64,000 nucleotides of DNA from a virus: positions 104,935-168,934 of the IMG/VR virus record IMGVR_UViG_3300034111_001103; one strand, given 5' to 3'. The notes below the pieces were generated by a model. The model did not search any database. It had not been told where the DNA came from and saw only the letters and a program-made list of their open reading frames with translations. This document shows positions 17,890 to 45,015 of this stretch, piece after piece; within the stretch, counting starts at the first letter, position 1; each line of letters starts with the position of its first letter. A program made the position numbers and the translations under genes.

Positions 17890-17900
17890 TAAGTTAATTC

Positions 17901-25800: not shown

Positions 25801-28800
25801 TTTTGTTTAGGAGAACCATATTCTATATCAAAATACGCATTACCTAATTCTTCTGGAGTTTTATAAAATTCTCCTGCATCATCTTCACTTTTAAAATATT
25901 CTCCATCAAAAATAAAAGTATAGTCTCCTATTTTTATAATGTCATTTTTTTTAGCCTGATATATTTTATTTAAAGCTACTTTATCAATTTCTAAAATAAG
26001 TTTTTTTAATTCATTTTCTTGCTCATTAATTTTTTTATTACTTTGAAACCCTAAAGCTTCATATACTTCATTAGCAAGATTACTATCACTTTCAAATAAT
26101 TCTTCTACTCCTAGTTTGATATTAGCTTCTTCTTGACTAAATAAACTATCTTGTTGATTAGTATTGTTTGTTGTATTGTTATTATTTGATTTTGTACCAT
26201 ATTTAACAAATCCACCTATAAGTTCATTTACTTCTTTTTCATTTAATATTTTACCTGTAAATTTAGTAATCCAAGTTTGAATTGAAGTTAAGAATTCTTT
26301 CCACCAAGAAGGTTTTGGTTTATCTATTAATGTTTCAGCCCATCTAGCTGCTAATTCCATTAATAATTTTATTTTACCTTCTTCACTTTGATTGGTAAAA
26401 CCATAATCCAACATTAAATTTTCTAAAGAAGTATGTCCTGTTCTTTTTAAAAGTTCAGGTAATTTTTCCATTAATTGTTTTTCAGCAGAAAATAAAACTT
26501 TTCCTAATTCTTGTACTCCTCCTAATTCTTTAGCCATTCTAATCATACCTCTATGAGCTACTTCATGTATACCTACTTTTGATGCTTCTTCTATAGGTGT
26601 ATTAGAAGCTACTACTACTACTTTGTCTGCTTTTGCATCATAATATCCTTGTATTTGATTAGTATTAGTTTTAGAAAATGGTAATTCATCTAGATCAAAA
26701 CCATCATAATCCATTTTATTTAAAATTTGTGCTAAAGTAAATGTAGGATTTTCTACTTTATATTTTTCTAGTATTGTTTGATTATATTTTACACTTCTTT
26801 CAAGTGCAGTAGCTTCTTGCTCTGCTTGTTTTTTTAATAATTTTTCTTCAGTTTCTTTATCTCTTTTTATAATATTATCTTCATATATTTTTTTTAAATC
26901 TATTCTCTCTTCTTTTATATTATGAGGTAAATATGAAAACACATCAGGTGTTTTTGTTACAGCCATTGTAACAAGCTCATTATAAAATGGTAAATTTTCA
27001 TCTATATGAGTTATATTATAAGGGGAAGATTCCACACCTATTCTTGCAATTTCTTCGTTATTTCTTAATTCAGGTTTTAATAGTTCAAAAAATTCTAAAT
27101 AATCAGGATTTTGTAAAACTTCTTCTACAGTATTTAAATTTTCAACTGCTGTGCTTCTTCTTTCTAAATCTTCTTCAAACAATCTTTCATTTTCTTCTCT
27201 TTCTCTTCTATATTCTCCTTCTATATCATCTCTATCATCATCTGGATAAAAATCAGCTGGATCCCAATCATAACCATATATATCAAAAACTTTTTCATCA
27301 GCATCAACCTTACCTGCTTCTTTAGCTTTTTTAGCCCTATTTAAAGAATCATTATTAGTATCTAAATTATGCTTTTCAAAGAAAGCTAATATATCATCAT
27401 AATGATCTATTGAAGAAGTTCCATTATTAGCTCTTGATGTGACTTCTTTTACTTTTCTTAATTCAGATTCTTCTAATAGGTTTTGTATTTTAATTTTTAA
27501 ATACTTTAATTCTGTTTGTAAATCTTCATTTATTCTTTTAATAGTGTTTTCTTCTTTGTTAAGAATTTCTTCTCTACTGTTTGCTGAAAGTTGATACTTA
27601 ACCCCCATAAATGGTTTTATAGTAGTAGTGAAAGTAGATGGTTGCCCTTTAATTCTATTTCTATCTACTATTGTATAAGACTCATTATTTTCTAAATCTT
27701 TAATTTTATTTTCAAGGTCTTGTATTTTTTCAGAATTATCTACTCCTGGATAAGCTTCAATTCCAGCAACAGTAACACCATCAACAATTAATAAATAGTT
27801 ATCATAATTCTCTACATAATGAGAAGCCATACCTGATGCTGTGCACCAAGTTGAAGGAGATAGTTTTCTAAGTAGTTCTACATTTACTTTAAATTGAGAA
27901 TTATTTTTCCAATTTTCTGGTTCTACATCCTCAAGTTCTTTTTTAAATTTTTCTATCTTGTAGTCTTCATTATGAGGATTTTTATCAACAGATACATTTT
28001 TTTTGTCCATAGAAAAAACTATAGCCTCATTTTCTGTTTTAAATCTTTGAATAATAGGTCCCATTACAACACTAACTGTCCAAGGATTATTTTTTATTTC
28101 TTCCCATTCAGCAATTTGTTTCTCTCTATTTTCTTTAAAATCTTCATAACTACTAAATCCTAAATAATTTGAGGAACTAGTTCTAGGAATATGCACCCAA
28201 TATCCTTTACCACTTGCAGAAGGTTCATGACCAACTGCATCAGATACTGTTTTTAATACTTCAGAATCATATAATTTACCTATTCTATTAAGTTCATGTG
28301 GTTTATTTACAGCTATACCATAAGTTTGTTGTAGTGCTACTGCTGATAATTGTAAAACAAACTTAGATCTTCTTTCAGGATTTCTTAAATGTTTAATAGC
28401 ATGTTTTAACATTAAATCTTTAAAAACAACAGGATAATTTTCTAATGCTTTTACCCATTTATCAAAACTTTTTTTAATGTCTTTATTTTTTAAAATAGGG
28501 TCTTCTAACTTTAATAGTTTGTTATAACTATCATTAGCCATTTTCTCTATTTGAGCTTCAGAAGTAATGCTTTTAATAATTTGACCTCTTGATGTATTAG
28601 CAGATAAGTTTATACCAAACCAATTAATTAGAAACGGATTTGTTATTCCTTTTTCTTCTAGTACATCTTTCATAGAAAGAAATAAGTCTTGTCTACCTAA
28701 TATATCTAAAGGCACATCTTGTACTACTGTAACAGCATTAGCTATTTCTTTAGGTAATTGATTTTTAATAACATTAGTTATTTCTTCTGTTGTAGAAATT

Positions 28801-29261
28801 TTAATATTAGTAGAAGTTCTTGTAAAAGGTTCATCATTCTCAAAATACTCTCTATTTTCTTGTATTTCTTGACTAAGAGTTTCTTTTGGTTTTGCTTCTT
28901 CTTTTTGTTTTGCTTCCTCTTTTACTTGTTTTTGAAGTTCGTATATTTCTTTAGAATCATCTGTTGCATTTATAAGATTTAATTGATTATTAGTAGGTTC
29001 TATTTTAACCATACCTCTACCAGTAGCATCAAATCCAAGATAAGCTACTTTTCCTATATCTTTATAACCATCATTAATAACAGTATTAATTGCATCAGCT
29101 ACTGTTTTAGCCACTCCTGTTGAGGTTTTTAAGTTTATTTTTTTAGAGGGACTATCTAAAATACTAATAAGACCAAAATTACCATCTTTTTTATAAAAAA
29201 ACCAAGGCTTATTATCTAATATTCCTTCAACTACTTTGTGTAATCCAATTGAACAACTCAT
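19830..29261 (-). CDS. Giant polyvalent virion-type protein (3143 aa)
   Basis: A multidomain protein. Near residue 472 is a STWCTASGMASHYVENYDNY segment. GYYDAKADKVVVVASN and H899-E-V-A-H903 form a zincin peptidase of the type seen in phage 'polyvalent' proteins. About 1200-1310 looks like a divergent ADP-ribosyltransferase-like domain (YQGIYLSQDKS...YDAIEILPP); a second, with VVYHGTDKIF (H1345), follows. About 1880-1945 is a RecB/Cas4-type PD-(D/E)XK nuclease (GTID1901, D1915-W-K1917, QxxxY). Long coiled coils lie at about 2020-2330, and hydrophobic segments near 3007-3025 (LLTLFLLAKFILPFIVGG). Such proteins are thought to be injected with phage DNA. It follows the RNA polymerase gene by 17 bases. 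Confidence 0.75.
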   Translation of the reverse strand: MSCSIGLHKVVEGILDNKPWFFYKKDGNFGLISILDSPSKKINLKTSTGVAKTVADAINTVINDGYKDIGKVAYLGFDATGRGMVKIEPTNNQLNLINATDDSKEIYELQKQVKEEAKQKEEAKPKETLSQEIQENREYFENDEPFTRTSTNIKISTTEEITNVIKNQLPKEIANAVTVVQDVPLDILGRQDLFLSMKDVLEEKGITNPFLINWFGINLSANTSRGQIIKSITSEAQIEKMANDSYNKLLKLEDPILKNKDIKKSFDKWVKALENYPVVFKDLMLKHAIKHLRNPERRSKFVLQLSAVALQQTYGIAVNKPHELNRIGKLYDSEVLKTVSDAVGHEPSASGKGYWVHIPRTSSSNYLGFSSYEDFKENREKQIAEWEEIKNNPWTVSVVMGPIIQRFKTENEAIVFSMDKKNVSVDKNPHNEDYKIEKFKKELEDVEPENWKNNSQFKVNVELLRKLSPSTWCTASGMASHYVENYDNYLLIVDGVTVAGIEAYPGVDNSEKIQDLENKIKDLENNESYTIVDRNRIKGQPSTFTTTIKPFMGVKYQLSANSREEILNKEENTIKRINEDLQTELKYLKIKIQNLLEESELRKVKEVTSRANNGTSSIDHYDDILAFFEKHNLDTNNDSLNRAKKAKEAGKVDADEKVFDIYGYDWDPADFYPDDDRDDIEGEYRREREENERLFEEDLERRSTAVENLNTVEEVLQNPDYLEFFELLKPELRNNEEIARIGVESSPYNITHIDENLPFYNELVTMAVTKTPDVFSYLPHNIKEERIDLKKIYEDNIIKRDKETEEKLLKKQAEQEATALERSVKYNQTILEKYKVENPTFTLAQILNKMDYDGFDLDELPFSKTNTNQIQGYYDAKADKVVVVASNTPIEEASKVGIHEVAHRGMIRMAKELGGVQELGKVLFSAEKQLMEKLPELLKRTGHTSLENLMLDYGFTNQSEEGKIKLLMELAARWAETLIDKPKPSWWKEFLTSIQTWITKFTGKILNEKEVNELIGGFVKYGTKSNNNNTTNNTNQQDSLFSQEEANIKLGVEELFESDSNLANEVYEALGFQSNKKINEQENELKKLILEIDKVALNKIYQAKKNDIIKIGDYTFIFDGEYFKSEDDAGEFYKTPEELGNAYFDIEYGSPKQKISLNVLLSNLKTDNFEILGEKIKADKKLLEVKDANTNNLINPFINSAIQQPLYVGDKRKSLVNNKHPYQEPQYQGIYLSQDKSTTHVATSSKILTVFANVKNVKTISYDEYSKNQLKLKEVYNQYDAIEILPPSFVTGGKSDFIVFNNTNLYEVNSIAQITPQQKQQALQQYSQYLDQIFPNSVVKNIVYHGTDKIFESFSKNIEKIPNREISNTANAYFFSNDLSRIKDYGKNKINAILNVKEFLGFKNISNDRARVLSDMTYEKAKGYTDRNIDSVIADYDLYKDYIVFEPEQIHILGSKQDIERFKDFVNKGSNQNNENNTDTSTDTEVRKILNTPIVIEQEVTSSKDNTTDDLVEIKESEVKKKLQEILKILGITIERDADLPKDTLAKVDMLQKLISFSKGELTEDNFTEEVIHLIINIIEQKDPTLYDKMISEIWKFGIYKEVLDNYKDDPEYQTKEGKPDIAKLKKEAVVKLLVAKLVDNTNINDTKNIFGALWDKVSDFITNLFSKIPAYQRDLFEEFANDIVTKDNLINKEDVDKLGDGVFYSKKMSKANIFSSTMAKTKKAFGVASVEDYHLIIPSLKDSKEIFDLLKKINEETSLVVAREINPETGKEEEVTYYVTGTGMKKRVSTVLNEIKTNIGNYKTIDETEITAFIKEEKMKKGTEIHSTIEEIIGRHIDKETGFLKVTPEDRPQNIAIPEKYYNILEKHLKERLISYPKDTRFMVETKIVNEVYGYAGTIDFLAILPTGQVDILDWKSMDLSYNIGGKSMKREDVHALTKQVHRQQLALYKQALLSVGVKNFRQTRTIPIIVENTTKKINKSKSFEDPKNLVIRLTSLEIGNVDPNKEAKSYLLPISTSNEEVFDDITGKPISFLNTLIEKLEAYKAHSLEQRAQSTTLDRDRLLDQIQRTDKTIQELRSKKTTNLLITVFEDELFNINELSKKTFSFLKDNKNLSDLIPEQQQELRLYFDKMYENHNFLSSFLKVFPTLGELETIHKDMSPELVKSINSVKAKITISEEKLTVAVTKTMNQVGTILGMDDNVSDIDVKSSTMINSYSLYSRPELSLQMFTRLQKMINYLKEQEVQSFDSKMEKLMVGLQSWVKTNKTNLEGVYSKVYDKVNRRLIYKYKKEYFQTLFDKKEEAIKKHRDIIKGVSIQLSSKERITQISKEYRAYITPFIKENYDIKKYVQLYEEAYKAYKEVVDNYIFDADPFENADIQAKKLEEWEYRHNIFTNPKALQTSGFNKNELLFQTINEDKWISDEYRELLKPENKEVFDFYNQLQDILTDAKDSGMIESLNNLPEVKNDSFKIFTYLKAGLFKNYILSKFYAFYDRFLTNTYSSQNISDPFTNKDKKKIRSKYNNTFFLKRKPLESPEAYQERYNKEKVLYDMSLSKDLFYIFSVFGHHVIEYKILKEYESRFQLLSIVENNKTKEINTDNSKGNITLPLDDSGMPYYDDNKKLGITEGDKGTLRDLNRHIDYYLYNDKLAPKGALINIVNWLYSLTTQVNLGFTYTAPLTNLVAGLTNSTLTNNTYYNSSDFQNSILPAIKDKNTAVNVKNFTKLNKMFNPFVEMSDQVYTTNKYKTTEKRYINVTKASLFLYSAGDHIIQSKIIASIYYGTTVDENNNIISVEDFINNKYPDRYNLPKEERIKLAKKIDKEIKEYKKTNSLYNLVSTNSLNLDAKNNILLTSIIEDTIAKTLGNYSEQDINTFMTKWWAKFVTQHKKWLGETIATRLEPFNVNKNTNLLEWGRMRLSLDLLFASYGKHIPFLVFHNMSSVLPEIVRKSVNKNNTITLEDIAKERYKVMQVEFFKKTSKNLKVTEAEFIRFYVRQYENSLKEAKSLLTLFLLAKFILPFIVGGDDDDNKEKDTYRTTLDIVIVVLTRSLREQSFVFNPEQLKIMLLQGPIPTIGTAWNLIDSYIYAPLKETYFTLTGDDEALKTNRVIDKQLNATPAKGINKIVKQISPSYRKLLDARRPKIQ

Positions 29262-29278: not shown

Positions 29279-32200
29279 TTATTGTAAACATTTAGCATCT
29301 TTTTGAGATAAATTTGTATTTAAGCCTAACTCTTCAGAAGTTATATTACTTTCTTGTGATTGAGTAGGTTGGTTTTGAGTAAAAGGTAATTTTTGTTGAT
29401 TATTTAGTTTATCTAACATATTTTGTAAAGATACTAAAAAATCTTGAGATTTAAAAGAATATCTTGATTTTAATTCAGAATCCCAATATATTGGCATAGT
29501 ATCCTTCATATTTCTTAGAAGGTTTTCATTCATATTAGGTCTTAATGTTTGAACACTTTCATTGTTTATGTAAGAAGGTTTGTAATCTGTATTTGAGTTG
29601 TAATATTCAGATGTTTCTCTGTTTCCATATTTTCTTACAGGAAAATAAGTAACTAGGAAACCTTTGTTATCTTTAGTTGCTACTAAAGGAACATCTTTTT
29701 CTTGAGTTATTGGATTAGGAACTTCTAATCTTTTATATAATACAATTTCATTAAAAGAAAAATCTTTTCTTTTAACCATAGCATCTTTTTCAACTTTAGT
29801 GTAATACTTACCAGTTTTAGGATTTATAGCTTGTTTCTTTACTTTAATGTAAGGTTTTTGTGTTATTTCTTTAGATGAAGCTATTTGTATGATATTTACT
29901 GTTGCTTCTAAATCACCTTTTGTAACTTTTTGTTGTCTATAGATATTTTTAGTTCTATTTTCATAAACAGGAGCTTGATATATAGGAACTAATTTGTTAT
30001 CATACCATTTACTTTGATAATAATTATTAACAAAGTCTTCTATATATTGTTGTTGTAGTTCTGGAGATAGTTTTTCTCTAAATTGAGTTAACACCTGAGC
30101 CATTATATTTTCTATAGCATCTGCTGGAATTAATGTATTGTAAGAATTAGGAGTATTTGTTACACCATTTTGTGCTATAACCCCTATTATTATACTTTTA
30201 GCTAAGTTTTCTGTAGTTGCTTTTTTAGAAAGATTGTAAAGATCAGCAGTCATTTGATTAGACTCATTACTATCTTCAGGTTTTCTTAAAAGTCTTGATT
30301 GGAAATGTTTGTCATCTTTGTTTAGATAAACAGGATTTACACCAATAATATTAGAAAGAAACATAGAACTACCTTTATAGGTTTCTTGAGCTTGTCTTAT
30401 AGTATTAGCTATGTTTGTGTCTTTATTTAAGAAAAGAGTAGGATAATAACTTGATATTGTTTGATCTACAAGGGGACCATAAGTTATTGGTAATGTATGT
30501 AATAGATAAGTAACAAGATCTTTTCTTATATTTTTTAGTTCTTTTTCTATATCATCAATACTTTTTTTAGACTGTAATACACTATTCATTAATTTGTTTA
30601 GAAAAGGTCTTATTACAGGATTTTCAGATAAATACAATTCAGAAAAAGATTTAAGAATAGTATTTTTAATTTCATATAAATTACCTATATGGGTAGTTTT
30701 ATATAATTCAAACATTGTTTTACCTAAAGAAGATTCTAATGCATCTTTTAGTTTACTAAGTTTTACTCTAGTGGAATCAAAAGATCTATCTAAAGTAGTA
30801 TCTACATTTACACCTTGTGAGAGAGTTAAAATATCTTGAGCTACTTGTTCTAATTGTCTAAATTGTACTAGTAGTGTAGCTTGATTTATTGCAAAATCAG
30901 GATTTTTATCACTAAGAATAAATTCTTCTAATTCTTGATCTGTGTAGTTTTCTCTATCTAATGTTATCATTCTACCTTCTTTATCTGTAGGTAGTTTATA
31001 TTTGACTATTAATTGCTCTTGTATTTCTTTTTTACTTTTAGGGTTTCTTTTGTTAAGTCTAACAAGTGCTCCTTGATTTTGTATTAAAAGGTTAACATAA
31101 TCTATTATAATAGGTTGATTAAAGAATCTTACTAAAGTAGAAAGAGGAATACCTAGTCTTACTCCAGCTATATAAGTACCAGCAGTAGTTAAGTTACCAT
31201 TAGCATCAAAGATATAAGGTTTGTTAGCTATATCTACAAAAGCATCTAGAAACATAGATATTAAGTCACTTATTCTTTCACCTTTAGAATTTAATTCTTG
31301 TGATAAAGAATAAATAGTGTTAGCATCATTTACAGGAACATTAGTATTGAAAAGAAAAGGAAATTCTACAGGTATATTAGAAACAATAGTTTGAGATATA
31401 GCATTTAATGTTTGATTAGAAGCAGCAATACCAACACCCTCTTTCCCTACTAAGAAAGAATATCTTTTTACTATATTATGTAATCTAGATAATATACTTG
31501 TATGATAAGCTTTTTTCTTTTGGTTTCTTTCTTTCAGTTCTTTGATTTTATTAGCTTCATTCTCAAGAGGATCTGCACTGTTGGGTTTAACTAATTGTTT
31601 AAAGTTTTCTTCTAATTGTACTATTTCTCTTAGATTATCTATATAATAATTATCTAAAGCTTTTTTAGAGTTTTGTTCATAAATAGATAATTTTTTAAAT
31701 TCTTCAAAAGTTGGTATAGATTTTTTTTCTTCTTCAGAATTTTGTTTAGCAATTTCTAGATTTTCATCATAAGATTTTGTTAAATCTATTCTTGAATCTG
31801 AAAGATCTTCTCCAAATATATCAGAAATAAGTTTAGTCGAATCTGTATCTAAGGAAGCTTTAAAATAATTATAACCTTCTTTACTATTTAAAAACTCATA
31901 AAAGGTTTGAGCTTTTTGTAATTTTTTATATCTTTCTTCTACAGTACTATTAGTATTGTTTAAGAAATTGATTTTTTCTAACTTTCCTGTTTGTTTGTTG
32001 AATTTATGATTATAAAGATAAAGATTAAGTTTATCAATATCAAAATCCGAACCTGCTTTACCTACTATTTCTGAAGGAACCATTATAGCATCTCCATAAG
32101 AAGGGTCTAAAAACCCTACTATTTCAAAATGTTCTACAGAATTGAGAGCTTGAGTAGGAATCCTAAAACCTATACCTTTTAAAAGTTCTTTATCTATTTT

Positions 32201-35200
32201 AGAAAAGTCAAAATTTTCTAATCCTAATAATTCTTTATATCTCCAAGGTAGTTTTACTTGACAAATTCTTTTACCATCTTCATTTTTGTAGAATTTAAGT
32301 TCTCCAGAATATAATTTTTTAGTTTTAGAGTCTTTCTTTCTAGGGTTTCTTTCAAAAAGAGTAGAAGCTATTTGAGGAAATTGTCCTCCAAATATCTTAG
32401 GAGTAAGAATAGCTTTATTTATAATAGAGTTTATGATATTTTCTACTGTATCTGTTCCAGATATAATAGTATCAAAGGGTAATATAAATTGTCCTTGATC
32501 ATTAGTTCTTATAAGAGATTTAACATTTAAAGGTTTATCTCTGTTGACTAATTCTTGTTGAATTTTTTCTTCAAACTTTTTATAATTGTTAAAAGTTAAT
32601 ACTTTTCTATTTGTATTAGGATCTATAGTTACTTCTCCCCCAAAGTCTTTGTAGAATTGATTTATAGCTTTAGTTTCCATAGCAGCAAGAATCTCAAAAT
32701 TCTTTCTAACTAGATTATAATGATTAGAAGCAGTTCTTTTTTCTTCTTCTGAAAGAGAATCCCATTCAGTTTTTAAATCTTCTTCTGATAGATGTGAGTT
32801 TGTTTTCCTAAAATCTTTAGGAACTCCATTAGACATTAAGTTTAATATACCTAATTTTGTTAACTGAGTACCTAGAGTAGTAGACATTTTTTGTGTTATA
32901 GTTTCTACTTGAATACCAAACCATTCCCAACTTAATACTTTATGTTTAATATTTAAATTAGGTGTACCATTAGGTTTATATAACTCTTCAGTATCTTTAG
33001 TTTGACCTACTTTGTTAGCAGATTCAAAAGTTATATAAGTTGTTTGATTTGTATAATGTTTTATGTAGAAATCTTTAGCATTAGAGAATTTTACTTCTCC
33101 TGTTGCTTCATCTATATATCTTATATGACTCCATATTAAAGGAGCTACTGAATATTTATGTTGTTCAAAAGTACCATCAGATTTTAAACCATTATAAGCA
33201 GGTTTTAATATATTCATATTTGGAAGAGGTAAAGGGTTTAATCCTTGTTCTTCTCTTACTTTATTTATAGCTTGTATTGTAAAGAAAGGATTACCTTTAG
33301 CTATTATTTTTTTATCTAAAGCTCTCAGGGCATCAGCTCTTTTTTTGTCTTTTTTAGCTTTAGGGTATAAATCCATATCACTTCTACATAAAGCATCATC
33401 ATATTGTTTGAAGGCTTCATCTACTTCAGTCCAAGAGTTAGCTCTTCTTTTTATTTGAGAATATCCCCCTAAAAAAGCTAGTGCTTGGGCATCAGGTTCT
33501 TTAAGTTCTGAGTAAGGTTTAGCTTCTTCTTCTCCTAAAATTTCTTTTAATGCTTCATATTCTTCAGACACTACTACAGGATCTATATATACTTGTACAT
33601 TAAATTCCTCTTGATGATTAACATATCCTAAATCTCCAGGAAATAATTCTACAGATTCTGTAGATTCTTGTCCTATGGTATCTTCTTCTATAAAAGCTAC
33701 ATTACTATTTTTATTATGATAATCATTAAAATATTGTGCAGAATATACTACTTTTTGAGAACCTGAAGTAGTTTGTTTTATTCTCTTAAAAGGATCTTTC
33801 CATTCATTCGGGTTTAAAAAGAATAAGTTAAATTGTTCAAATATATTTATCATATATTTAACTTCTTCTTCATAAACAATACTAGCTATTTGCTCTTTAG
33901 AAATATTTTTAAATTTATTAAAAGTACCTTCTACAGTTTTTTCTTCTTTTCCTTCTGGAGTAAGTAATATTCTGTATTCATCTTTTTTACCTTCTATAGG
34001 AACTATAAGATTATTTATCCATAGTCTATTTTCTGTTTCTTTAGCTCTTTCTTTGAAGAAAGTTAAAAGGTCTTTTTCTATATCTTCTTTATTTTTTAAA
34101 AGAATAGTTTCTATACCTTCTGAAAGATCTATATTAGATAAAGTCTTTTCTGAAAGTATTTCTTTAAAGAGACCTAATTGGTTTGTGTTTTGTTTTAAAT
34201 TAGACTCTCTTTGAGCTTTTGCTACTTCAGCTTTAAAGTAATTAATAAATATAGGTAAGTAATAAATTTTATCACTAGCAGAACTTAAAACACTTTTAGG
34301 ATAAGTAATTACCCATTCATTCTTAGTATCTGCTGGTACTATAATAGAATATATATTATTTATACCATTAGCAAAATCTAGAGCTAATCTTCCTGATAAA
34401 GATAATTTATTTGAAGCATCAGTATTATCAGATTGTCTCTCTTCTATACCTTCAGTTACACCTACAGTTATATTACCTTTTTTTGTACCTGAAGGACTAA
34501 ATAATTCAGAATGCAACATAGTTTGAGCATAATGAGGTAGTCTATCTATTAATTCTCCTTTAGTAGATATTGAATTAAATATCTTATTAATACTTGTAAT
34601 ATATGAAGGTAAAGTTATATTTTGAACCATTTCCCCCTCTATATTTTTATGTTGAGTAGTTTCATATATAGGGTTGTATTTATTATAAAGCTGAGCTAAT
34701 TTATCAAACTTACCTTTAAATTCTCTAGAATCTGTTATTATATTATCAATATTGCCTTCTTTTTCACTTAAAGTATAATTTACTATACTACTTAGTAATT
34801 TTAAAATTTCATCTTCTTCTGTAGAAGTGTATTTTGTATACTTTAATCTTATATCTATACCTAATTCATCTTTTGCAAATTGTGCATATTGATCTAATGT
34901 TTTAAGTGTAGGTATTGGTTTTCCTAAATTAAATACATAATGTCCTTGACTAACAGATACTTTTTTATTAGATTTTAGTTTTTCATACCACTCATTTTTA
35001 AGTTTGTTAATACCATCTTTTTCATTTATAACAAAATTAACAGAAGAACCATCTTCATTAACTATTAGTTTGTAGTAAGTATTTTTAAAATTACTAAAGG
35101 CTATAAAGAAATCATTTCTTAATTCTACAGTAGCTTTATCTACTACTTCTTCATCTAGTTTTAATTTATTTATTAATGGTAAAAATTTAGCATCAACTTT

Positions 35201-38200
35201 AGTAAGATCATACAACATATCCATCATTTCAGTATAATTTGTAGCAGGAGCTAAAGCATACATAAGTTGAACAAATGTTTTATTATAATCTACTAAAGTA
35301 GGTAGGAAAAGAGAATTAGGTCTAGTTATAACTCTTCTAGTAACAGGGGAATAATATTGATCTTTTAGTGTAGCTACTAAAAGTTTTATTTTTAGATTTG
35401 CATTAAGTTTTCTATTAATAGTTAATGTATTTACAAATTGATCATTCTTATCTTTGTTTTCTTTATTTGGGTTATTTTCTTCTAATTCCTCATCTTCAAA
35501 TTCTATTTTATATTTACCTAAGTATTTCTTATTAGCTTTAACAAAATAATCCCAATTATCTAGAATATAAAGCATAGAAGTTTGAACATCATGAAATTTT
35601 TCATTAGTTTCTTCTAAGGTTGCATTATGTACAGCAGTATAATATTTACCAGGTTCTTTAAAGAAATTTCTTCTTTCTTCAGGACTAGACATAATATGTT
35701 CAAAAAAAGCACGAACTTCATCATAATAATTGTCTATATTAATGTCAGACTTTAACAAATTTCCTAAAGAATCTCCTTTATCTGTTATAAATTGAAACAA
35801 TAAAGCAGTAATAGATTTCATTGAATCATTATAAAACAAAGGGTTTGTTAGTTCTATATCAGCAAGTTTATTTTCTTTTGTAAGAGAATTAAGATTATAT
35901 TTTAATCTTAGCTTTCTATATTTCCCAGAAGATAGGTTTTTAAAAGTACTTTCTATATTACCTAAAAATAAATCAAGTATTATGTTATATAATTGTTTAA
36001 ACCAAGAATTTTTATAATATTCTCCATCCCACTTTAACTTACCTTTAGATAAATGGTATCTCATATATTCATCAGCAAGTTCTTCTTTAATTTGAAAATC
36101 AGTAGCTTCTGAATATTTAACAGATTTTTTAGTTTGATAATCTATAAAAGAACCTTTTCTATTTCTAAATTCTTCTCTTAATCTTTCAATTCTTTTAGGA
36201 GATAAAAAGTGTTTTTGTAAAGCTTCATAAGCTTCATGTTGAATAGTACCTCTTTTAGCTAAAGTAGAAAGTAAAATAGCTTTATCTTTTAATTGTCCCC
36301 AAGCAACATTATCTATTAAACCTTCTACAGATTGTAAAGGTATTTGAGGTAAAACATTATCTAAATATTCTTCAGCTTTCTCTATATCTTCTACTTCATA
36401 ATCAGTTTCTTCAGAATCAACTAATTTAAAATCTTTTATATTTTCTGAAGTTGTAGATATATCACTTTCATTAAAACCTATATTATTAGAGTTTGTTTCT
36501 TCTACTTTTTCTTCAGAAACTACAGGTTCTTTTTCTACTATAGGTTCTATTTTCTTAAAACTATAACTTTCTTTTGCAAAAACACCTAATTCAATAATAT
36601 TTGATTTTATTAACTCTTTAATTACTTCATTAGATAATTTAGAATTAAATGTTTTATCAATAGTTACAGTTTTTTCTTCCCCAACAGTTTTAATAGTATA
36701 ATTTACTATTAAGTCTTTATTTGTAAGTTGATAAGAACCATCTTCACTTGAAAAAGGTATATCTTCATTAGCAGATTCAAAAGATTCTGTATCAACATAA
36801 GCATATTTAGTATCATCTTTAAATACCATCATTCTTCCAAACTTATTAGGGGTAGTTTCAGAAGAAGGATTTAGTTTTATTTTTAAAGGTATTTCATCAT
36901 TACTTCTTTTATTACCATTAGGAAGGATATCAGAAATAAGATAATCTTGATAAGTAGCCCATTTTCTTTCTAATAACTTTCCTTTTTCTAGATAATATTC
37001 TATAAACTCATTCATCATACCATTAGAGTCTATATTATGAAATATCATTCTATTATTTAACTCATTTTTTATTTTTGGTAAACCTTTAGTGTTAAGGGGT
37101 AATAAAGATGTTTTTGGTATCTGAATACTAAATGATGGTGAAGTTTTAAAAAATATTTGATTGTTACCTAAAGGAGTTTCTTGTTTTACAGTTTCACCAT
37201 TTTTATCAGTATATTCAGGATTTCTGATATATAGAATTTTAGATAAAAAGTCAAATAATTTTTTATTTTCTTTTGAAGTTTCTATCTTTTCTTCTTTATC
37301 TTGAGATAATGATAGTTTTTTGTTTTCTCCTATTTTTGTAAGAACAGCCATCACAACATCTATGTCTTCTGGAGATATTCTTCTATTTTCTAGAAATTCT
37401 AAATGTGTACCTACTTTTACAAAAGGTCTTCCTTTAGGGAAACTTTTTTCTTGTTTGTTATGTACTATTACAAAATTACCTTCTTTATTTTTTTCAGGAA
37501 ATATAACTATTTGAGTATTAGGTTCTTTAATATCTAAACTTTGAGTAATAGGAAAAGATTTTTTAGCATCTTCTACAGGTCTTCCTCTAGTAACATAAAG
37601 AATAGGAAAAGTGATATTTTTTTTCTTACCTTTTTTTATAGTTTCAATAATATTATTTCTTCTTGCAATATGTTCATTTTGAAAATTTTCTGGAGTTTTT
37701 TCTGTACTATTAGAATTTTCATGATAGTTTTCCTCACCATTATTCCAAGTAAGTTTAGGTAATCTCATAGAAGTATAAATAACTGTATCAGGGTTTATAT
37801 CTTTAAGATATTTACCATCTACACCTATAAATTTTATTTGACCATTTCCTAATTTTTTTACTACTACTAGTTTAATATCTTTACTTTCTTTTGAAGGAAA
37901 TATTATACCACTTAAACCATAATTTGAAGCATTATCTTCAGTTAGTGCTAAAAGTTCATATTGTCTAATATCTTCTACATTATTTAAAAATGTTTGTAGT
38001 CTAGTAACTTGAGGGTTATCTTTTAAACTTTCTTTTCCAGTTTGTCCAATAGTATGTCCACTTGTTGTAGTAATAAATAATTGTTCTATACCTAATTTAT
38101 CATCCTCAGATTCAATTCTTTTAATATCTTTTGTAGGATCATCTGTTTCTTCAGAAGATTCTGTAATTTCTATTATAGGGGTTTCTTGAGTAGTAGATGT

Positions 38201-41200
38201 AGGTTGTTCTTTAGATAGTAGGGATTGTATTTGATTTTTAAAATTACTTATTTGATTATTATATCTGTTTTCTACTTCTGATATTTTTTTGTTTACTTCT
38301 GCTAATTGTTGTTTTAGTTGGTCAAGTTTTGTGTTTTCTGATTTAGAATAGTAAACACCTTCAGAAACAAATCCTTCTGCCACATAGTCAATAGGATTTT
38401 CAATCATGTTTTTTAAAATACCTAAAGCCTCATCATAAGCATTTGTAGATATTCCTAAAATATCTAAAATATAATCAAAAAACCTTTCTACAAAATTTAA
38501 TTCTTTGTTTTTTAAAGCATCTGTAAAACCATCATGTGTAAGTTCAGCAAGTATTTCATGTTCATTTTTTGAACCATAAAAATCTTTTGTGTTAGAATCA
38601 CTCTGTAACTCTCTCAATAAATTAGAAAGTTTTTTAGCAGCATTAATTTGTTTTGGGGTAAGTTTATTTAAAACTTCTGTTTTGTTGTATTTAACAGCAT
38701 CTATTATGTAACTTGTAACACCGTGCACTAACTCATGTACAATAGTCCTTGCTGCTACATCAGGACTTGTTAATAAACTTGCACGATTAGCTACTTGCCC
38801 ATTAGAATATTCACCTTGATGTTCTTTTGCAATATTGTTACCTTTACCCTCAAGAAGAAATTTTGTAGGTATTTTTAATTTTTCTGCGACATTTTTTATT
38901 AAATTCCATATAAACTTAGTTTGTTTACTACCATGTTTTTGCACAAAAGCATCTAACTCATTTGCATAATAAACTTTATCTAAGTCTATCCCTAGTTCTT
39001 CAGCAGATAATTTACTACGTTCATTTATACTTTCATCTACTGCTTCCTGATTTTCATTTAGTTTATCTACTCTTGTACTGTTATCTTCAAAATATTCTAA
39101 TTCAGAAGGTCTTTTGTAAGTAGTGCTATTTCTTTTTTCTAATTCTTGTATTATTTCTTCAAATGTAAAATCAGTAGTTTCTACAAAACGGTTTAATACC
39201 CTTATATCTTTATCTGATAAATTGTTTAATTGTGAAAAACTATCAACTAATGCTACAATTTGGTTTTTAAAACTTTTTTGTAAAAATCTTATCTTTTTAT
39301 TAAGTTTATTAAACAAGGATATTTTATTGTCAGGAATAGAACCATCTTCATTTCTAAGATTTACAATTTCTTTTTTTGCATCTTCAATTTCTTGCGTACT
39401 AGTTTCCGAACCTTTAGTATCTTTCTCAATTTCAGCAATCTCATTTTCTAATCTTTCTTTTTCTTCAATTAAAGGTTGTAGCTCTTTTGCTTTAGCTTTT
39501 TCTGCTTTTTCTATTTGTTTTTCTAATTCTTGTCTTCTTCTTTCTATATCAGCTTCTTTAGTTTCTATAGTATTATCTACCTGATCAGTAGTAGTTTCTT
39601 CTTGTTCTATTCCTAAATCTAATAATATATCTTCATCAGAAGTTAAGACTTTTTCAGATACTAAAGAAGAGTTTATTTTAGTTTGTTTAGGAGTATTATC
39701 TTTTACTAGATCTTTGAGTTTTTTTAACCTAGAGTTTTTATTATTGTTTTGGTAACTTTCTAAATCGGATAAAAGAACTTGTTGATCTTTAAGTTTTCCG
39801 TCTTCTTTATATCTAAACATTACAAATCCTTTACCATCTTTAGGTCTGTACACTAATCTACCTTTAACAACTGTTTCCTTTCCCTTAATATCTACAGGAA
39901 AAGTAAAAATAGTATTTTTGTGATCATAAACAAATCCTTTAGGATGGTTTAATTCTCTGTATTTTTTTAGAGAAGATTTTGGTGTAAATCTTTTATTATC
40001 AAAGTAATTAGCTGGTACTTCTTTTTCTATATTATCTTCTAGTATTTTTAATTTACCATTAGGTAATTGTTCTAAGATAGTAACATCTTTAGTTTCAAAT
40101 ACTTTAGCTTTTTCTTTAGATTTAACAAAATTATAGACATGTAAAACTTCTCCTTTGTTATAAAGTTTGTTTTTTATTTGAATTTTATCTTCAGGAACAG
40201 GTTCTATATTATCTATAGCTTGAGCTTCAGTATTTATATTAGTTATTCTTTCTTGAAGTTTAGATTTTAATTCATCTATTCTTTTTATATCATCAGTATA
40301 AAGTTTTCTATCAGGATTCTTTTCAGAAGAAAACATTTCATTTGTAAACTCAAATTGTTTTTTGTATTCATCTAATTTTTTAATAACACCTTCCAACACA
40401 GGAATATTTATTGATTCTGTATCTAGTAATGCAAAAAATTCTGGTAAATGTTTAGAAAGAGCTTTAGTGGGATCTGCTTGAAATTCATCTCTAAATGTAA
40501 GAGCTTTCTTTTTAAGAACATCTCTTTCTTCATTTAACTGATTTATTCTATCAAAAGTTTCTTCTGAAGGAGTACTTACTTGAGATAGTTTAAATAATTG
40601 ATGAGTTAAGTTATAAAATTCATCTTCTTCTTTAGGATTTAATAAATATGGAGTATAAGGAAGAGAATCTTTTCTAGTCATTTTAACATCTGAATAATAA
40701 TCTTCTACTTTATCTACTACTTCTTTTCTATTTTTAGCTTCAGGAAATAGTTTTAATAAAGTTTTATCATCTACAGTATTTAAATATTGTCTAGCTAATA
40801 GTAGATATTGTTCAGGATTTTGATAAATTTCTGAAGTAAAGTTTGCTAAACCACTTTTAGCAGTATGAGATAAACCTCTATAACCACCCATACCCATTGT
40901 AGGTAACATAGCTAAAGTAGTATTCATTATGGTACTTAGAGTTTCTTCATAAGTTAGTCTATCATCTGCTTTGAATTTTAAATTATTTCTCTCTACACTT
41001 TTATCAAAAGGGGTATTGGCAACATTTCCTACTAATTCTTCTATACTTTCTTCCATAGGAACTTTTACTAAAGAACTAAATAAAGTTTCTACAGTAGATT
41101 TCATTACAGGAGAAATCATAGATTTACCTAATGATTGTCTTAGAAATTGTTTTAATACAAAATCTTTTATAGGTTGTTTTGAAAGAGATTTAAATAAATC

Positions 41201-43432
41201 ATATTCAGGAGTCCACCACATTTCTGTACCTGTTTCTATAAGTTTCTCTCTTTCTGTTTTAGTTAATGCAGCATTAAGACTATCTAAATCACCACTAAGG
41301 TAACTTTCAAAGTTTTGTTTAAATATTTCATCGTGCATTAATAATTGTCCAGCAGGTAACCTACCTACTTTATCTGCAAAGTATCTTACTAAACCCAATT
41401 GACTTTTAGACAGCAAAGCTTCTATTCCTGTAGCTGCACCTATTTCTGCTCCTGCTGCTGCTAACATAGCACTTTCTATAAAACTAGAAATACCTTCTCT
41501 AAATGCAGCTCTAGGGTTTATAGATTTAGACCATTTTATAGAACCATCTTTTCCTCTTACTATAGTAAAAGCTTGTACATCCTTAATTGCTTTAGGAACA
41601 TACATATTTATATTGTTTGCATCATTTTTAAATTGTGCATATGTTTTTAATACTTGTTCATCTTTAGAAAGAACACCTGTTGCATTTCCCCCAATAAGAG
41701 CATAATTATGAACAGCATTAACTACACCTACCATTCCACCTACAGTAGGTTTGGTGAAAGGTTGTACTATATCAAATTGTACAGAAAATTCTTTAGCTTT
41801 TCTTTCATATTGTTCTGTGGTTTCTTTAAAGTTTTTAAAGTCTTTAAAGTTTTCTAGTTCTATTTGATCTATTTTTTCTTTGACTTTATCCTGTTGATTA
41901 GCTAAAGTGTTATATTTTTGTATTTGATTGTCAATCTCTTGTAAACTTTTAGGATCTATTTGTTGTCCTTTTGCTTTAAATTCAGCAATAGATTCTTGTT
42001 TATATTTAGATAATTCTCCAGCATACTTAGTATACATTTTTTTATTACCTTCAGTAAGAGCCTTTAAAGTTTCTAATCCTGAAAGAGTTTTTTCTTGAAA
42101 GTCCACTACATTTATATCATAAAGATTTCTTAACCCACTTTTAGCTATAGCAGATTTAGCTCTTGAGTCTCCTAAAATAGAGTTCTCTTTCAAATATTCT
42201 TCTAAAGTTTGCCCATTATTACCTCCAATAAATGTTCCTTTTTTAGTAAACATAGAGTTTAAGGCAGATTTTAGTTCTGGATTGGTTAAAGCACTTGATT
42301 CATATCCTAATTTACTTGCTTTAAAAAGAATATCGTTATTGTTTTGAGCTAAAAATTTTTCTGGAGCTTCTCTTATTACTTTAGCTTCAGTATTATTTAT
42401 TATATAAGGTATAGAAGCTTTTTGATCTAAAGAAATTATTCTATTATTAAGATCTTCTTTTTTTCTTTCTAAAAAATGGATAGTTTTATCATACTTAAAT
42501 ATTCTATCTAGAGTATCTTCATACTCTTGTATTTTAACACTATTATCTTTACAACCTTCACCAACACAATCTTTGTATCTTCCTAAAGTTTGCTTTAATA
42601 AGTTTTGATTAATTTTACTTTTTTCTAGGTAGTCTTCAAGTTTATTTTTTTCTTCTAAAAAACCTTCTTTTATAGGAGCAGTAAGTTTAGTTATTCCTTC
42701 ACTTATTTCTTCTGTAGTTTTATTAGGGTCAAATAAAGTATCATAAAGTTCTTTTTTAACTTGATCTCCTTGTTTAAGAGCCATCATATACATCTCTTTA
42801 TTAGAAGGATTATTTAAATCTATATTAACTAAATTTTGTTTATCATCTACATAACCAGATTTTATATCATAAGTACCAAACATTTGTTTAAAAGCTTGAC
42901 CATAAAATAACTCTTCTACAGACATAGGTTCCTTTCCTTCAACAGAAGGGGGTAAATCACCTTTTAATCTTTTTTCTTCTCCTTGTCCAAATAATACACT
43001 TGTTTTAGTAGGTTCTATTGGAGCTTTAACATTTAAAGGATTAGGAATAATTTCATCATACATACTAGCATATTTCTCTACAGATCTATTTAGATTTCCT
43101 TGAGCTATAGTTTTTTGAACATTAGTACTTAAGGGTTTAATTATAGGAGAAATAGGTTTAGTAGTATCATTTAGATTTACATTACTAGCTTTAGTTTGTA
43201 AAGTCTTAATGTTACTATCTAGTTCTGTTTTTGGGTCTGTAGTAGATTCATAATACCTAGATTTAAAAGTATTTATATCTGGTAATTTTATGTCACCTTT
43301 TTGTAATTTACCATATAAACTATCTAAACCTTCTGGTGTAGAATATTTTGTTTTAAATGTATTATAGTCAGGAACTTTTATATTTCCTGCGTCTAATTTG
43401 TCATAAAGTATTTTTAATTTATCTTCTGGCAT
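29279..43432 (-). CDS. Giant virion RNA polymerase protein of crAss-like type (4717 aa)
   Basis: The core is RIPTQALNSVEHFEIVGFL followed by GDAIMVPSEIVGKAGSDFDI, with the triple-Asp motif D3796-F-D3798-I-D3800. This is the DxDxD catalytic loop of two-barrel RNA polymerases related to YonO and to the crAss-like phage enzyme carried in the virion. Upstream are an N-terminal tandem repeat (residues 6-62), a helical region, a hydrophobic patch near 650, a long coiled coil at about 1280-1340, a zincin site H1566-E-L-V-H1570, and HEAYE at 2399. It should transcribe early genes after injection. At 4717 residues it is far larger than the phi14:2 enzyme (about 2180), so fused subunits or cargo domains are likely. 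Confidence 0.85.
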   Translation of the reverse strand: MPEDKLKILYDKLDAGNIKVPDYNTFKTKYSTPEGLDSLYGKLQKGDIKLPDINTFKSRYYESTTDPKTELDSNIKTLQTKASNVNLNDTTKPISPIIKPLSTNVQKTIAQGNLNRSVEKYASMYDEIIPNPLNVKAPIEPTKTSVLFGQGEEKRLKGDLPPSVEGKEPMSVEELFYGQAFKQMFGTYDIKSGYVDDKQNLVNIDLNNPSNKEMYMMALKQGDQVKKELYDTLFDPNKTTEEISEGITKLTAPIKEGFLEEKNKLEDYLEKSKINQNLLKQTLGRYKDCVGEGCKDNSVKIQEYEDTLDRIFKYDKTIHFLERKKEDLNNRIISLDQKASIPYIINNTEAKVIREAPEKFLAQNNNDILFKASKLGYESSALTNPELKSALNSMFTKKGTFIGGNNGQTLEEYLKENSILGDSRAKSAIAKSGLRNLYDINVVDFQEKTLSGLETLKALTEGNKKMYTKYAGELSKYKQESIAEFKAKGQQIDPKSLQEIDNQIQKYNTLANQQDKVKEKIDQIELENFKDFKNFKETTEQYERKAKEFSVQFDIVQPFTKPTVGGMVGVVNAVHNYALIGGNATGVLSKDEQVLKTYAQFKNDANNINMYVPKAIKDVQAFTIVRGKDGSIKWSKSINPRAAFREGISSFIESAMLAAAGAEIGAATGIEALLSKSQLGLVRYFADKVGRLPAGQLLMHDEIFKQNFESYLSGDLDSLNAALTKTEREKLIETGTEMWWTPEYDLFKSLSKQPIKDFVLKQFLRQSLGKSMISPVMKSTVETLFSSLVKVPMEESIEELVGNVANTPFDKSVERNNLKFKADDRLTYEETLSTIMNTTLAMLPTMGMGGYRGLSHTAKSGLANFTSEIYQNPEQYLLLARQYLNTVDDKTLLKLFPEAKNRKEVVDKVEDYYSDVKMTRKDSLPYTPYLLNPKEEDEFYNLTHQLFKLSQVSTPSEETFDRINQLNEERDVLKKKALTFRDEFQADPTKALSKHLPEFFALLDTESINIPVLEGVIKKLDEYKKQFEFTNEMFSSEKNPDRKLYTDDIKRIDELKSKLQERITNINTEAQAIDNIEPVPEDKIQIKNKLYNKGEVLHVYNFVKSKEKAKVFETKDVTILEQLPNGKLKILEDNIEKEVPANYFDNKRFTPKSSLKKYRELNHPKGFVYDHKNTIFTFPVDIKGKETVVKGRLVYRPKDGKGFVMFRYKEDGKLKDQQVLLSDLESYQNNNKNSRLKKLKDLVKDNTPKQTKINSSLVSEKVLTSDEDILLDLGIEQEETTTDQVDNTIETKEADIERRRQELEKQIEKAEKAKAKELQPLIEEKERLENEIAEIEKDTKGSETSTQEIEDAKKEIVNLRNEDGSIPDNKISLFNKLNKKIRFLQKSFKNQIVALVDSFSQLNNLSDKDIRVLNRFVETTDFTFEEIIQELEKRNSTTYKRPSELEYFEDNSTRVDKLNENQEAVDESINERSKLSAEELGIDLDKVYYANELDAFVQKHGSKQTKFIWNLIKNVAEKLKIPTKFLLEGKGNNIAKEHQGEYSNGQVANRASLLTSPDVAARTIVHELVHGVTSYIIDAVKYNKTEVLNKLTPKQINAAKKLSNLLRELQSDSNTKDFYGSKNEHEILAELTHDGFTDALKNKELNFVERFFDYILDILGISTNAYDEALGILKNMIENPIDYVAEGFVSEGVYYSKSENTKLDQLKQQLAEVNKKISEVENRYNNQISNFKNQIQSLLSKEQPTSTTQETPIIEITESSEETDDPTKDIKRIESEDDKLGIEQLFITTTSGHTIGQTGKESLKDNPQVTRLQTFLNNVEDIRQYELLALTEDNASNYGLSGIIFPSKESKDIKLVVVKKLGNGQIKFIGVDGKYLKDINPDTVIYTSMRLPKLTWNNGEENYHENSNSTEKTPENFQNEHIARRNNIIETIKKGKKKNITFPILYVTRGRPVEDAKKSFPITQSLDIKEPNTQIVIFPEKNKEGNFVIVHNKQEKSFPKGRPFVKVGTHLEFLENRRISPEDIDVVMAVLTKIGENKKLSLSQDKEEKIETSKENKKLFDFLSKILYIRNPEYTDKNGETVKQETPLGNNQIFFKTSPSFSIQIPKTSLLPLNTKGLPKIKNELNNRMIFHNIDSNGMMNEFIEYYLEKGKLLERKWATYQDYLISDILPNGNKRSNDEIPLKIKLNPSSETTPNKFGRMMVFKDDTKYAYVDTESFESANEDIPFSSEDGSYQLTNKDLIVNYTIKTVGEEKTVTIDKTFNSKLSNEVIKELIKSNIIELGVFAKESYSFKKIEPIVEKEPVVSEEKVEETNSNNIGFNESDISTTSENIKDFKLVDSEETDYEVEDIEKAEEYLDNVLPQIPLQSVEGLIDNVAWGQLKDKAILLSTLAKRGTIQHEAYEALQKHFLSPKRIERLREEFRNRKGSFIDYQTKKSVKYSEATDFQIKEELADEYMRYHLSKGKLKWDGEYYKNSWFKQLYNIILDLFLGNIESTFKNLSSGKYRKLRLKYNLNSLTKENKLADIELTNPLFYNDSMKSITALLFQFITDKGDSLGNLLKSDINIDNYYDEVRAFFEHIMSSPEERRNFFKEPGKYYTAVHNATLEETNEKFHDVQTSMLYILDNWDYFVKANKKYLGKYKIEFEDEELEENNPNKENKDKNDQFVNTLTINRKLNANLKIKLLVATLKDQYYSPVTRRVITRPNSLFLPTLVDYNKTFVQLMYALAPATNYTEMMDMLYDLTKVDAKFLPLINKLKLDEEVVDKATVELRNDFFIAFSNFKNTYYKLIVNEDGSSVNFVINEKDGINKLKNEWYEKLKSNKKVSVSQGHYVFNLGKPIPTLKTLDQYAQFAKDELGIDIRLKYTKYTSTEEDEILKLLSSIVNYTLSEKEGNIDNIITDSREFKGKFDKLAQLYNKYNPIYETTQHKNIEGEMVQNITLPSYITSINKIFNSISTKGELIDRLPHYAQTMLHSELFSPSGTKKGNITVGVTEGIEERQSDNTDASNKLSLSGRLALDFANGINNIYSIIVPADTKNEWVITYPKSVLSSASDKIYYLPIFINYFKAEVAKAQRESNLKQNTNQLGLFKEILSEKTLSNIDLSEGIETILLKNKEDIEKDLLTFFKERAKETENRLWINNLIVPIEGKKDEYRILLTPEGKEEKTVEGTFNKFKNISKEQIASIVYEEEVKYMINIFEQFNLFFLNPNEWKDPFKRIKQTTSGSQKVVYSAQYFNDYHNKNSNVAFIEEDTIGQESTESVELFPGDLGYVNHQEEFNVQVYIDPVVVSEEYEALKEILGEEEAKPYSELKEPDAQALAFLGGYSQIKRRANSWTEVDEAFKQYDDALCRSDMDLYPKAKKDKKRADALRALDKKIIAKGNPFFTIQAINKVREEQGLNPLPLPNMNILKPAYNGLKSDGTFEQHKYSVAPLIWSHIRYIDEATGEVKFSNAKDFYIKHYTNQTTYITFESANKVGQTKDTEELYKPNGTPNLNIKHKVLSWEWFGIQVETITQKMSTTLGTQLTKLGILNLMSNGVPKDFRKTNSHLSEEDLKTEWDSLSEEEKRTASNHYNLVRKNFEILAAMETKAINQFYKDFGGEVTIDPNTNRKVLTFNNYKKFEEKIQQELVNRDKPLNVKSLIRTNDQGQFILPFDTIISGTDTVENIINSIINKAILTPKIFGGQFPQIASTLFERNPRKKDSKTKKLYSGELKFYKNEDGKRICQVKLPWRYKELLGLENFDFSKIDKELLKGIGFRIPTQALNSVEHFEIVGFLDPSYGDAIMVPSEIVGKAGSDFDIDKLNLYLYNHKFNKQTGKLEKINFLNNTNSTVEERYKKLQKAQTFYEFLNSKEGYNYFKASLDTDSTKLISDIFGEDLSDSRIDLTKSYDENLEIAKQNSEEEKKSIPTFEEFKKLSIYEQNSKKALDNYYIDNLREIVQLEENFKQLVKPNSADPLENEANKIKELKERNQKKKAYHTSILSRLHNIVKRYSFLVGKEGVGIAASNQTLNAISQTIVSNIPVEFPFLFNTNVPVNDANTIYSLSQELNSKGERISDLISMFLDAFVDIANKPYIFDANGNLTTAGTYIAGVRLGIPLSTLVRFFNQPIIIDYVNLLIQNQGALVRLNKRNPKSKKEIQEQLIVKYKLPTDKEGRMITLDRENYTDQELEEFILSDKNPDFAINQATLLVQFRQLEQVAQDILTLSQGVNVDTTLDRSFDSTRVKLSKLKDALESSLGKTMFELYKTTHIGNLYEIKNTILKSFSELYLSENPVIRPFLNKLMNSVLQSKKSIDDIEKELKNIRKDLVTYLLHTLPITYGPLVDQTISSYYPTLFLNKDTNIANTIRQAQETYKGSSMFLSNIIGVNPVYLNKDDKHFQSRLLRKPEDSNESNQMTADLYNLSKKATTENLAKSIIIGVIAQNGVTNTPNSYNTLIPADAIENIMAQVLTQFREKLSPELQQQYIEDFVNNYYQSKWYDNKLVPIYQAPVYENRTKNIYRQQKVTKGDLEATVNIIQIASSKEITQKPYIKVKKQAINPKTGKYYTKVEKDAMVKRKDFSFNEIVLYKRLEVPNPITQEKDVPLVATKDNKGFLVTYFPVRKYGNRETSEYYNSNTDYKPSYINNESVQTLRPNMNENLLRNMKDTMPIYWDSELKSRYSFKSQDFLVSLQNMLDKLNNQQKLPFTQNQPTQSQESNITSEELGLNTNLSQKDAKCLQ

Positions 43433-43443: not shown

Positions 43444-45015
43444 TTAAACCCCTAAATCTTTTTTTTCAGAAGTTGAATTCCCATGAGATGTTGGAAAAGC
43501 TTTTTCTACTCCTTTTACAATATCATCTACAGGATATTCAACTGTTTTATTAAACCTATTAGGTATTTCTATTTCTACTGTATAACTTCTTTTTAAAGGA
43601 TTGTATTTAGCTTTAACTACATCATGTTCATTACCCATTATATCATGATAAGAATTCAATAAGTCAATAACAGAAGATTCATCCCCTCCAGTTATTGCAT
43701 CTTTAACAGAATACAAATCTGTTTTAATTTTTACTTTTTCATCTCCTTTCTGTGTTTCTAAATTCACAACTGTTTTCTTTTCAGACTCATCTTTTTGACT
43801 TGTACCTATTTTACCTTTTAAATCATTTTCTACATCAACAAGATTTCTTCTTGTACCATAAGCATCTAAAATAGGTATACCGAGTTTACTAGCTCTTTCA
43901 TAAATACTTCTTGCTATTGGATCTTTAATAGTAGATACAAATTCTGAATCTACTTTAGCTTTATAAGCATATACTTCTTTTTCTTTAGCACCTTGAGCAG
44001 CAATAATGGCTTTTTGGTTTTGTAGTTGTCTATACATTTCTTCTTGTTTAGACATATCAAATCCTCCAAAAGAATGAGAATTTTGAATATTCATTAAATC
44101 TTCTTTAAAATCATTCATAAATTCTTCTTTACGTAAAGACTTTAGTATTTCCCCATTTACTCCAGGATTATTTATAGCAGAACTATATTTAGATATATAA
44201 CCTTCAACTTCATACAAAGCTTGTTTAGCCATTACATTATTTGGGTCTTTATTAAGTATTTGTAATGCTTCATTTTTATAAGCAGATAAAGCATTTAATT
44301 TTTCTGTAGCATCTTGTAAACCTTCTGTTCCCCAATCTCTATCTGCAAATTGTTCTTCAAATTCATAATCTTTTAAAGCTCTTACATTAGGATCAGACAT
44401 CATATTATTAGTAATTAAACTTATTTCATTTGGGTCATAGAATTCATCTACTCTTCCTGTTTTAGGATCAAAACTTTTAATTTTTTTTAATTTACCTATT
44501 TCTTCTGTAAGTCTTTTTCCTATCTTAGGATCTAAAAAACCTTGACCAGTAAATTTAGTATCTCTTATGTAAAGTCCTTGGTTTATATATCTTTCTGCTT
44601 GTTTGAGGATACGAGAATAATATGTTTCTCCTTTAGCTAAAGCATCAGCTTGTTTTTTAGCTTCTATTTCTGTTACAGTACCTCTTTCAGCAATACCCAT
44701 AAAATCAGGATTACTTGTTACTTGTGAAATATATCCTTTTAATTGATTTAGAGTAGAAGGATTTCTAAAGTCATTATGAGAAATTTTAGATACTTGTTGT
44801 AATACTCCATCTATTATTTCTTGTTTCTTTTTAGTATCTTCTCCAGGAAGAGAAGGGATACTATACAGTTTGTCTAAAAGGAGATCATCTGCTTTTTGAA
44901 TATTATCTTGGATATTTTTATCTGTAAATAAAGCTCCTTTCAAAAGTAAATCTTCTGAAACTGGCGGCTTCCATTCTACTGGTTCGACTGGGGTGCTATA
45001 AGGGGTGAATGCCAT
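43444..45015 (-). CDS. Presumed virion cargo protein (523 aa)
   Basis: A mostly helical, highly charged protein with no enzyme motif. Segments such as NIQKADDLLLDKLYSIPSLP and EIEAKKQADALAKGETYYSR suggest long helices. It ends with a beta-rich domain (KIKTDLYSVKDAITGGDESS, then RSYTVEIEIPNRFNK). It lies directly upstream of the RNA polymerase gene (11-base gap), the place where crAss-like genomes have proteins found inside the capsid and tail. Its own promoter candidate precedes it. The cargo role comes from gene order only. Confidence 0.5.
   Translation of the reverse strand: MAFTPYSTPVEPVEWKPPVSEDLLLKGALFTDKNIQDNIQKADDLLLDKLYSIPSLPGEDTKKKQEIIDGVLQQVSKISHNDFRNPSTLNQLKGYISQVTSNPDFMGIAERGTVTEIEAKKQADALAKGETYYSRILKQAERYINQGLYIRDTKFTGQGFLDPKIGKRLTEEIGKLKKIKSFDPKTGRVDEFYDPNEISLITNNMMSDPNVRALKDYEFEEQFADRDWGTEGLQDATEKLNALSAYKNEALQILNKDPNNVMAKQALYEVEGYISKYSSAINNPGVNGEILKSLRKEEFMNDFKEDLMNIQNSHSFGGFDMSKQEEMYRQLQNQKAIIAAQGAKEKEVYAYKAKVDSEFVSTIKDPIARSIYERASKLGIPILDAYGTRRNLVDVENDLKGKIGTSQKDESEKKTVVNLETQKGDEKVKIKTDLYSVKDAITGGDESSVIDLLNSYHDIMGNEHDVVKAKYNPLKRSYTVEIEIPNRFNKTVEYPVDDIVKGVEKAFPTSHGNSTSEKKDLGV

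Follow-up and report, generated by a model that had tools for sequence, protein, structure and literature searches.

A 4,717-residue reading frame in a crAss-like phage combines a gp47-type cargo region, a zincin-like domain and a predicted gp66-type virion RNA polymerase

The giant gene and its surroundings

The window analyzed here is a 64,000-nucleotide stretch corresponding to positions 104935-168934 of the 168,934-base IMG/VR record IMGVR_UViG_3300034111_001103. It carries, on the minus strand, one open frame of 4,717 codons devoid of internal stop, lying within a set of cargo genes ordered as muzzle, C1-like, C2-like, giant gene and a 3,143-aa gene. The features of this locus are the following (window positions; residues are those of the giant protein).

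29279..43432, minus: whole frame, 4,717 aa, gp47-type cargo and predicted gp66-type virion RNA polymerase
43250..43408, minus: two-copy N-terminal repeat, residues 9-61
40223..42796, minus: gp47-type N-terminal region, residues 213-1070 (profile matches)
38183..40135, minus: lineage-specific insert, residues 1100-1750, with a coiled-coil-like stretch and zincin-like site 1
38723..38737, minus: zincin-like site 1, HELVH, residues 1566-1570
36935..38011, minus: conserved middle region, residues 1808-2166 (profile match to cr108_606, 910-1254)
35909..36400, minus: zincin-like domain 2, residues 2345-2508, counterpart of the C-terminal zincin of crAss001 gp47 (P 98.9-99.3)
36224..36238, minus: HEAYE, residues 2399-2403; the downstream near-invariant acid is E2450
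35600..35908, minus: fusion junction zone, residues 2509-2611, the gap separating gp47-type and gp66-type profile matches
29975..35599, minus: predicted gp66-type RNA polymerase, residues 2612-4486 (sequence, profile, predicted fold)
33011..33205, minus: invariant lysines K3410, K3426 and K3474 (phi14:2 K1012, K1027 and K1065; 14 aligned polymerases)
32033..32047, minus: catalytic DFDID motif, residues 3796-3800
19830..29261, minus: next cargo gene, gp65/gp49-type RNAP-associated, 3,143 aa (HEVAH at 899, EEVIH at 1569, ART-PolyVal-like stretch)
43444..45015, minus: C2 cargo position (crAss001 gp46, 534 aa), 523 aa, assigned by size and gene order
45121..47547, minus: C1 cargo position (crAss001 gp45), 808 aa (size, gene order; phrog_15413, E=2e-11)
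49330..55155, minus: muzzle / tail stabilisation protein, 1,941 aa (phrog_37948, virion structural protein, E=6e-185; order as in crAss001)

The length of the frame, the DFDID motif near residue 3796 and the N-terminal repeat, which an earlier note had read from this DNA, were all located, and the phi14:2 enzyme, put there at about 2180 residues, indeed has 2,180. RIPTQ lies at residue 3757, and a charged, heptad-like stretch resembling a coiled coil begins around residue 1295. The two copies of the repeat start at residue 9 (LYDKLDAGNIKVPDYNTF) and residue 39 (LYGKLQKGDIKLPDINTF), and they were absent from the other ORFs of at least 100 aa in this genome and from the N-termini of relatives. 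Pfam and PHROG searches with the giant protein gave no usable match, Rfam detected no group I intron in the gene, and no near-identical DNA was found among phages.

Membership of the Crassvirales is indicated by a TerL (phrog_6681, E=1.5e-63), MCP-like matches (phrog_35737 and phrog_11589), the muzzle and the cargo order. The TerL gene, at positions 58523-60628 of the genome, is closest among named phages to that of Leptolyngbya phage Lbo-JY46 (38%), followed by the epsilon crAss-like csAssE-Sib (34%) and Cellulophaga phi4:1/phi17:2 (29%). Two further assemblies of the same phage were found, one of 66.7 kb with an identical TerL (L095) and one covering the RNAP end (L002, 99.87% identical). 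A second terminase-large-subunit-like gene was observed at genome positions 17441-18730 (L089; Terminase_3, 429 aa, E=1e-31), with no GC break. In the cyanophage Lbo-JY46 (L097, PP438436, 62354-75260), the nearest by TerL, the cargo position is occupied by proteins of 2,748 and 1,552 aa; a pattern search of seven of its proteins gave no DFDID.

Regarding the neighboring genes, the EEVIH of the 3,143-aa protein falls in a stretch aligned with unfused gp65-type proteins. This protein also displays an ADP-ribosyltransferase-like ART-PolyVal stretch (residues 1342-1450, E=9e-5, under the curated cut-off) and a DUF4116 stretch (735-783). The 523-aa protein in the C2 position had no family match. 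In the interval separating the muzzle from the cargo genes, a 139-aa ORF (48906-49325) resembles Dps, a starvation-inducible DNA-binding protein (phrog_858, E=7e-17).

A polymerase region and a cargo region in one frame

When the giant protein was compared with the PDB by phmmer, a single match was obtained, the phi14:2 gp66 structure 6VR4 (residues 3619-4125, E=1.3e-25), far beyond chance. Profile alignment with 24 relatives placed gp66 residues 166-2017 collinearly on residues 2612-4486. The AlphaFold model of residues 3400-4560 (pLDDT 77, pTM 0.78) had 6vr4_A as its sole significant PDB fold (Foldseek E=9e-25, probability 1.00, TMq 0.62), the individual double-psi barrels being judged through this overall fold match and not atom by atom. 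Besides, the three aspartates of DFDID and the lysines K3410, K3426 and K3474, which presumably sit near the other barrel, show no variation across 14 aligned polymerases, among them those of p-crAssphage and jaberico. Taken together, sequence and modeling identify residues 2612-4486 as a predicted crAss-like two-barrel virion RNA polymerase of the gp66 type. This agrees with the initial reading of the motifs, and the double-psi barrel fold around residue 3796, set beforehand as a check, was answered by the prediction of a gp66-like fold.

The preceding part of the chain, from about residue 200 to 2508, overall resembles the neighboring zincin-bearing cargo protein, i.e., crAss001 gp47. Residues 86-194, 554-624 and 2092-2293 of gp47 aligned by profile with residues 213-409, 880-964 and 2345-2508 of the giant protein, respectively, the last pair with hhalign P=98.9 and E=1.9e-17. 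Both the N-terminal region and residues 2345-2508 also matched Dulem virus 41. In addition, residues 287-662 of the 1,552-aa Leptolyngbya phage protein matched the gp47-type N-terminal region; as a side observation, that protein corresponds to residues 522-1070 of the giant protein. No profile match among reference crAss proteins was obtained for residues 1100-1750, and a single-sequence search with residues 1400-2600 gave no close relative. From these profile matches, the giant gene is read as a gp47-type and a gp66-type gene joined at about residues 2510-2610. Two neighboring virion cargo genes have thus very likely been fused naturally into one translated frame, in line with the earlier proposal that segments split elsewhere had been fused here: cargo and polymerase are encoded separately in crAss001, phi14:2 and Dulem virus 41.

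Distribution of the fusion among crAss-like phages

The core alignment, used to scan IMG/VR, returned 543 relatives, of which 80 were kept. The site-2 domain was found in the same ORF as DFDID in 70 of the 78 DFDID-bearing ORFs among them, whereas seven of the remaining eight were short (1,105-2,097 aa) and mostly cut by the end of the locus. Fused ORFs reach 5,485 aa, and the distance from the site-2 motif to DFDID varies from 1,303 to 1,590 residues (1,397 in the giant protein). In the core tree, the giant protein, cr108_1 and the fused sequences formed one group (SH-aLRT 99). The nearest row, L036, shares 35% identity with the giant protein, whose exact place within this clade is unsure because its branch is long (1.65). 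The same 5,485-aa ORF occurs in L036 and in Chitinophaga sp. YR573 (NZ_FOJF01000001.1, a contig of 4.83 Mb); therefore, a giant fused ORF of this type exists in an isolate assembly. The crAss-like element that carries it lies at about 3.73 Mb of this chromosome contig (L099), possibly a crAss-like prophage with a cultivable host.

These fusions are in line with published accounts: a review describes RNAP genes reaching ~6,000 aa as a crAss hallmark (PMC10136315), and another paper notes that crAss-like and N4-like phages have vRNAPs joined to large proteins whose function is unknown (PMC10770324). Hence, both the fusion and its size are known in kind, and the initial impression that they were exceptional is not sustained, the p-crAssphage fusion itself measuring 4,070 aa. 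Among environmental crAss-like phages, the fusion of zincin cargo with vRNAP is common and clade-wide, and it is ordinary apart from the two-state metal-site motif described below.

Comparison with named systems places these resemblances and differences more precisely. Like the giant protein, phi14:2 gp66 is a single-chain two-barrel RNAP with a DFDID loop, but it is encoded by a separate gene, whereas some 2,500 residues of the neighboring cargo precede the enzyme here. crAss001 shares the N-terminal regions and C-terminal zincin domain in gp47 and the catalytic core in gp50, but these are separate genes on opposite strands and the zincin motif is HEAFH instead of HEAYE. The same order of fusion, gp47-type then gp66-type, is found in cr108_1 (Pipoluvirus rarus, 2,967 + 798 aa), whose site 2 is HESFH and which differs by a group I intron (RF00028, 80 bits, L006:18375-18693, MT774385) inside the DFDID codons; the joined exons are inferred to read DYDID. 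The deposited annotation shows two proteins because of this intron. p-crAssphage (Carjivirus communis, gp44) and Rudgehvirus jaberico (4,098 aa) also encode giant fused RNAPs, but with the catalytic part first, fused to a downstream subunit, and the zincin protein as a separate gene. As the environmental fusion differs from that of p-crAssphage, fusions arose with different partners. The environmental giants (L009-L088, e.g., L036) share the present architecture but have other N-termini, mostly lack site 1, and several carry a different HExxH near the C-terminus. Finally, the N4 virion RNA polymerase (~3,500 aa), compared through its published description, is likewise a giant single-chain RNAP that is ejected and carries an HExxH domain, although of an unrelated T7-like fold (PMC12633501).

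The zincin-like sites and the proposed working of the chain

Two zincin-like sites had been announced in the earlier note. This held for HELVH at residue 1566, which conforms to HExxH in a weakly modeled fold (AlphaFold), and only partly for residue 2399, where HEAYE is an HExxE motif lacking the second histidine of HExxH metallopeptidases. Counterparts of site 1 at a similar offset were found only in L009 and L052, and this site thus appears, at the sequence level, as a rarely shared accessory insert. Since HExxH sites vary among relatives, in the 3,143-aa neighbor and in phi14:2 gp65 (HEIMH at 245), zincin modules come and go in cargo proteins. The AlphaFold model placed the site-2 motif on a confident helix beside a small sheet; the next helix bears the acid. 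A PDB fold search with the model of residues 1500-2565 gave nothing significant, and in a viral structure library its significant hits were only crAss-like or unnamed proteins, one being labeled ‘RNAP associated protein fused to zincin protease’. As no solved structure matched, the case for a zincin fold at site 2 comes from the motif and from homology with crAss proteins annotated as zincins.

At site 2, HE is present in 73 of 73 homologues and the downstream acid is E in 71 of 72. Only two residues occupy the fifth motif position, E in 58 homologues and H in 15. The absence of the second zinc-ligand histidine in those 58 might suggest a decaying pseudo-enzyme without metal. However, random decay should also yield Q, D, K or A, whereas the 69 distinct rows hold only E (54) or H (15) over about 11 changes on the core tree; only one other column, of the Y/F type, among 26 comparably conserved ones is restricted to two residue types. 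A Glu-to-His change takes two base changes, and neither Gln nor Asp intermediates were seen in the 73 homologues. Because only E and H occur, with about 11 switches and intermediates absent, the position looks like one under metal-ligand constraint, and a decaying, metal-free domain is rather doubtful. The domain would most likely bind metal through H2399, E2403 (replacing the usual His) and E2450. An active metalloenzyme with interchangeable HExxE and HExxH sites that would, upon ejection, cut or remodel either the chain or some host target, across a large environmental clade, appears improbable.

Two other explanations bear on whether the two parts form one molecule. An assembly artefact joining two genes could be suspected in a metagenomic record, the more so as the second assembly, L002, runs from the next gene into the C-terminal end but stops short of the junction. 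This error, named beforehand as what might overturn the fusion, was rejected: collinear single ORFs cross the junction in dozens of independent contigs, including the 70 of 78 IMG/VR ORFs, in cr108_1 and in the Chitinophaga isolate chromosome, which leaves an artefact with almost no credibility. Alternatively, the protein could be a self-processing polyprotein, in which one of the zincin domains cuts the chain, probably near residues 2510-2610, during or after packaging, freeing gp47-like and gp66-like proteins like those of unfused relatives. Indeed, domain 2 directly precedes the junction, its HE and downstream E are nearly invariant, unfused relatives function as separate chains, and self-cleavage is known for the CLCA metalloproteases with their HEXXE motif (PMC6851300). 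But domain 2 is also present in the unfused crAss001 gp47 and in Dulem virus 41, which offer no junction for cutting, the counterparts of site 1 are confined to two long relatives, the giant N4 vRNAP with its HExxH was purified and active at full length (PMC12633501), and a literature search gave no cleavage report for crAss RNAPs. Given that site 1 is uncommon and that most of the family has HExxE at site 2, we consider a general self-processing scheme unlikely. The cargo vRNAP probably stays one chain, without obligatory cleavage.

This single chain would most likely perform both the cargo and the polymerase jobs. Its N-terminal ~2,500 residues would constitute a gp47-type RNAP-associated protein ending in the zincin-like domain, and its C-terminal ~2,100 residues a gp66-type RNA polymerase with two barrels and the catalytic DFDID loop. 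Mass spectrometry detected gp47, gp49 and gp50 in crAss001 virions, where the capsid houses them and their ejection is proposed to take place in a partly unfolded state (PMC10172136), and phi14:2 gp66 is described as transcribing early genes (PMC7886860). By analogy with these two phages, the giant protein may be packaged in the capsid, thread through the tail partly unfolded into the host alongside the DNA, refold there and then transcribe early genes. The fusion would hold the cargo part and the enzyme at 1:1 and eject both in order. The E/H position beside the junction offers a precise residue for probing the enzymology of cargo zincins and the processing of giant vRNAPs before or after ejection.
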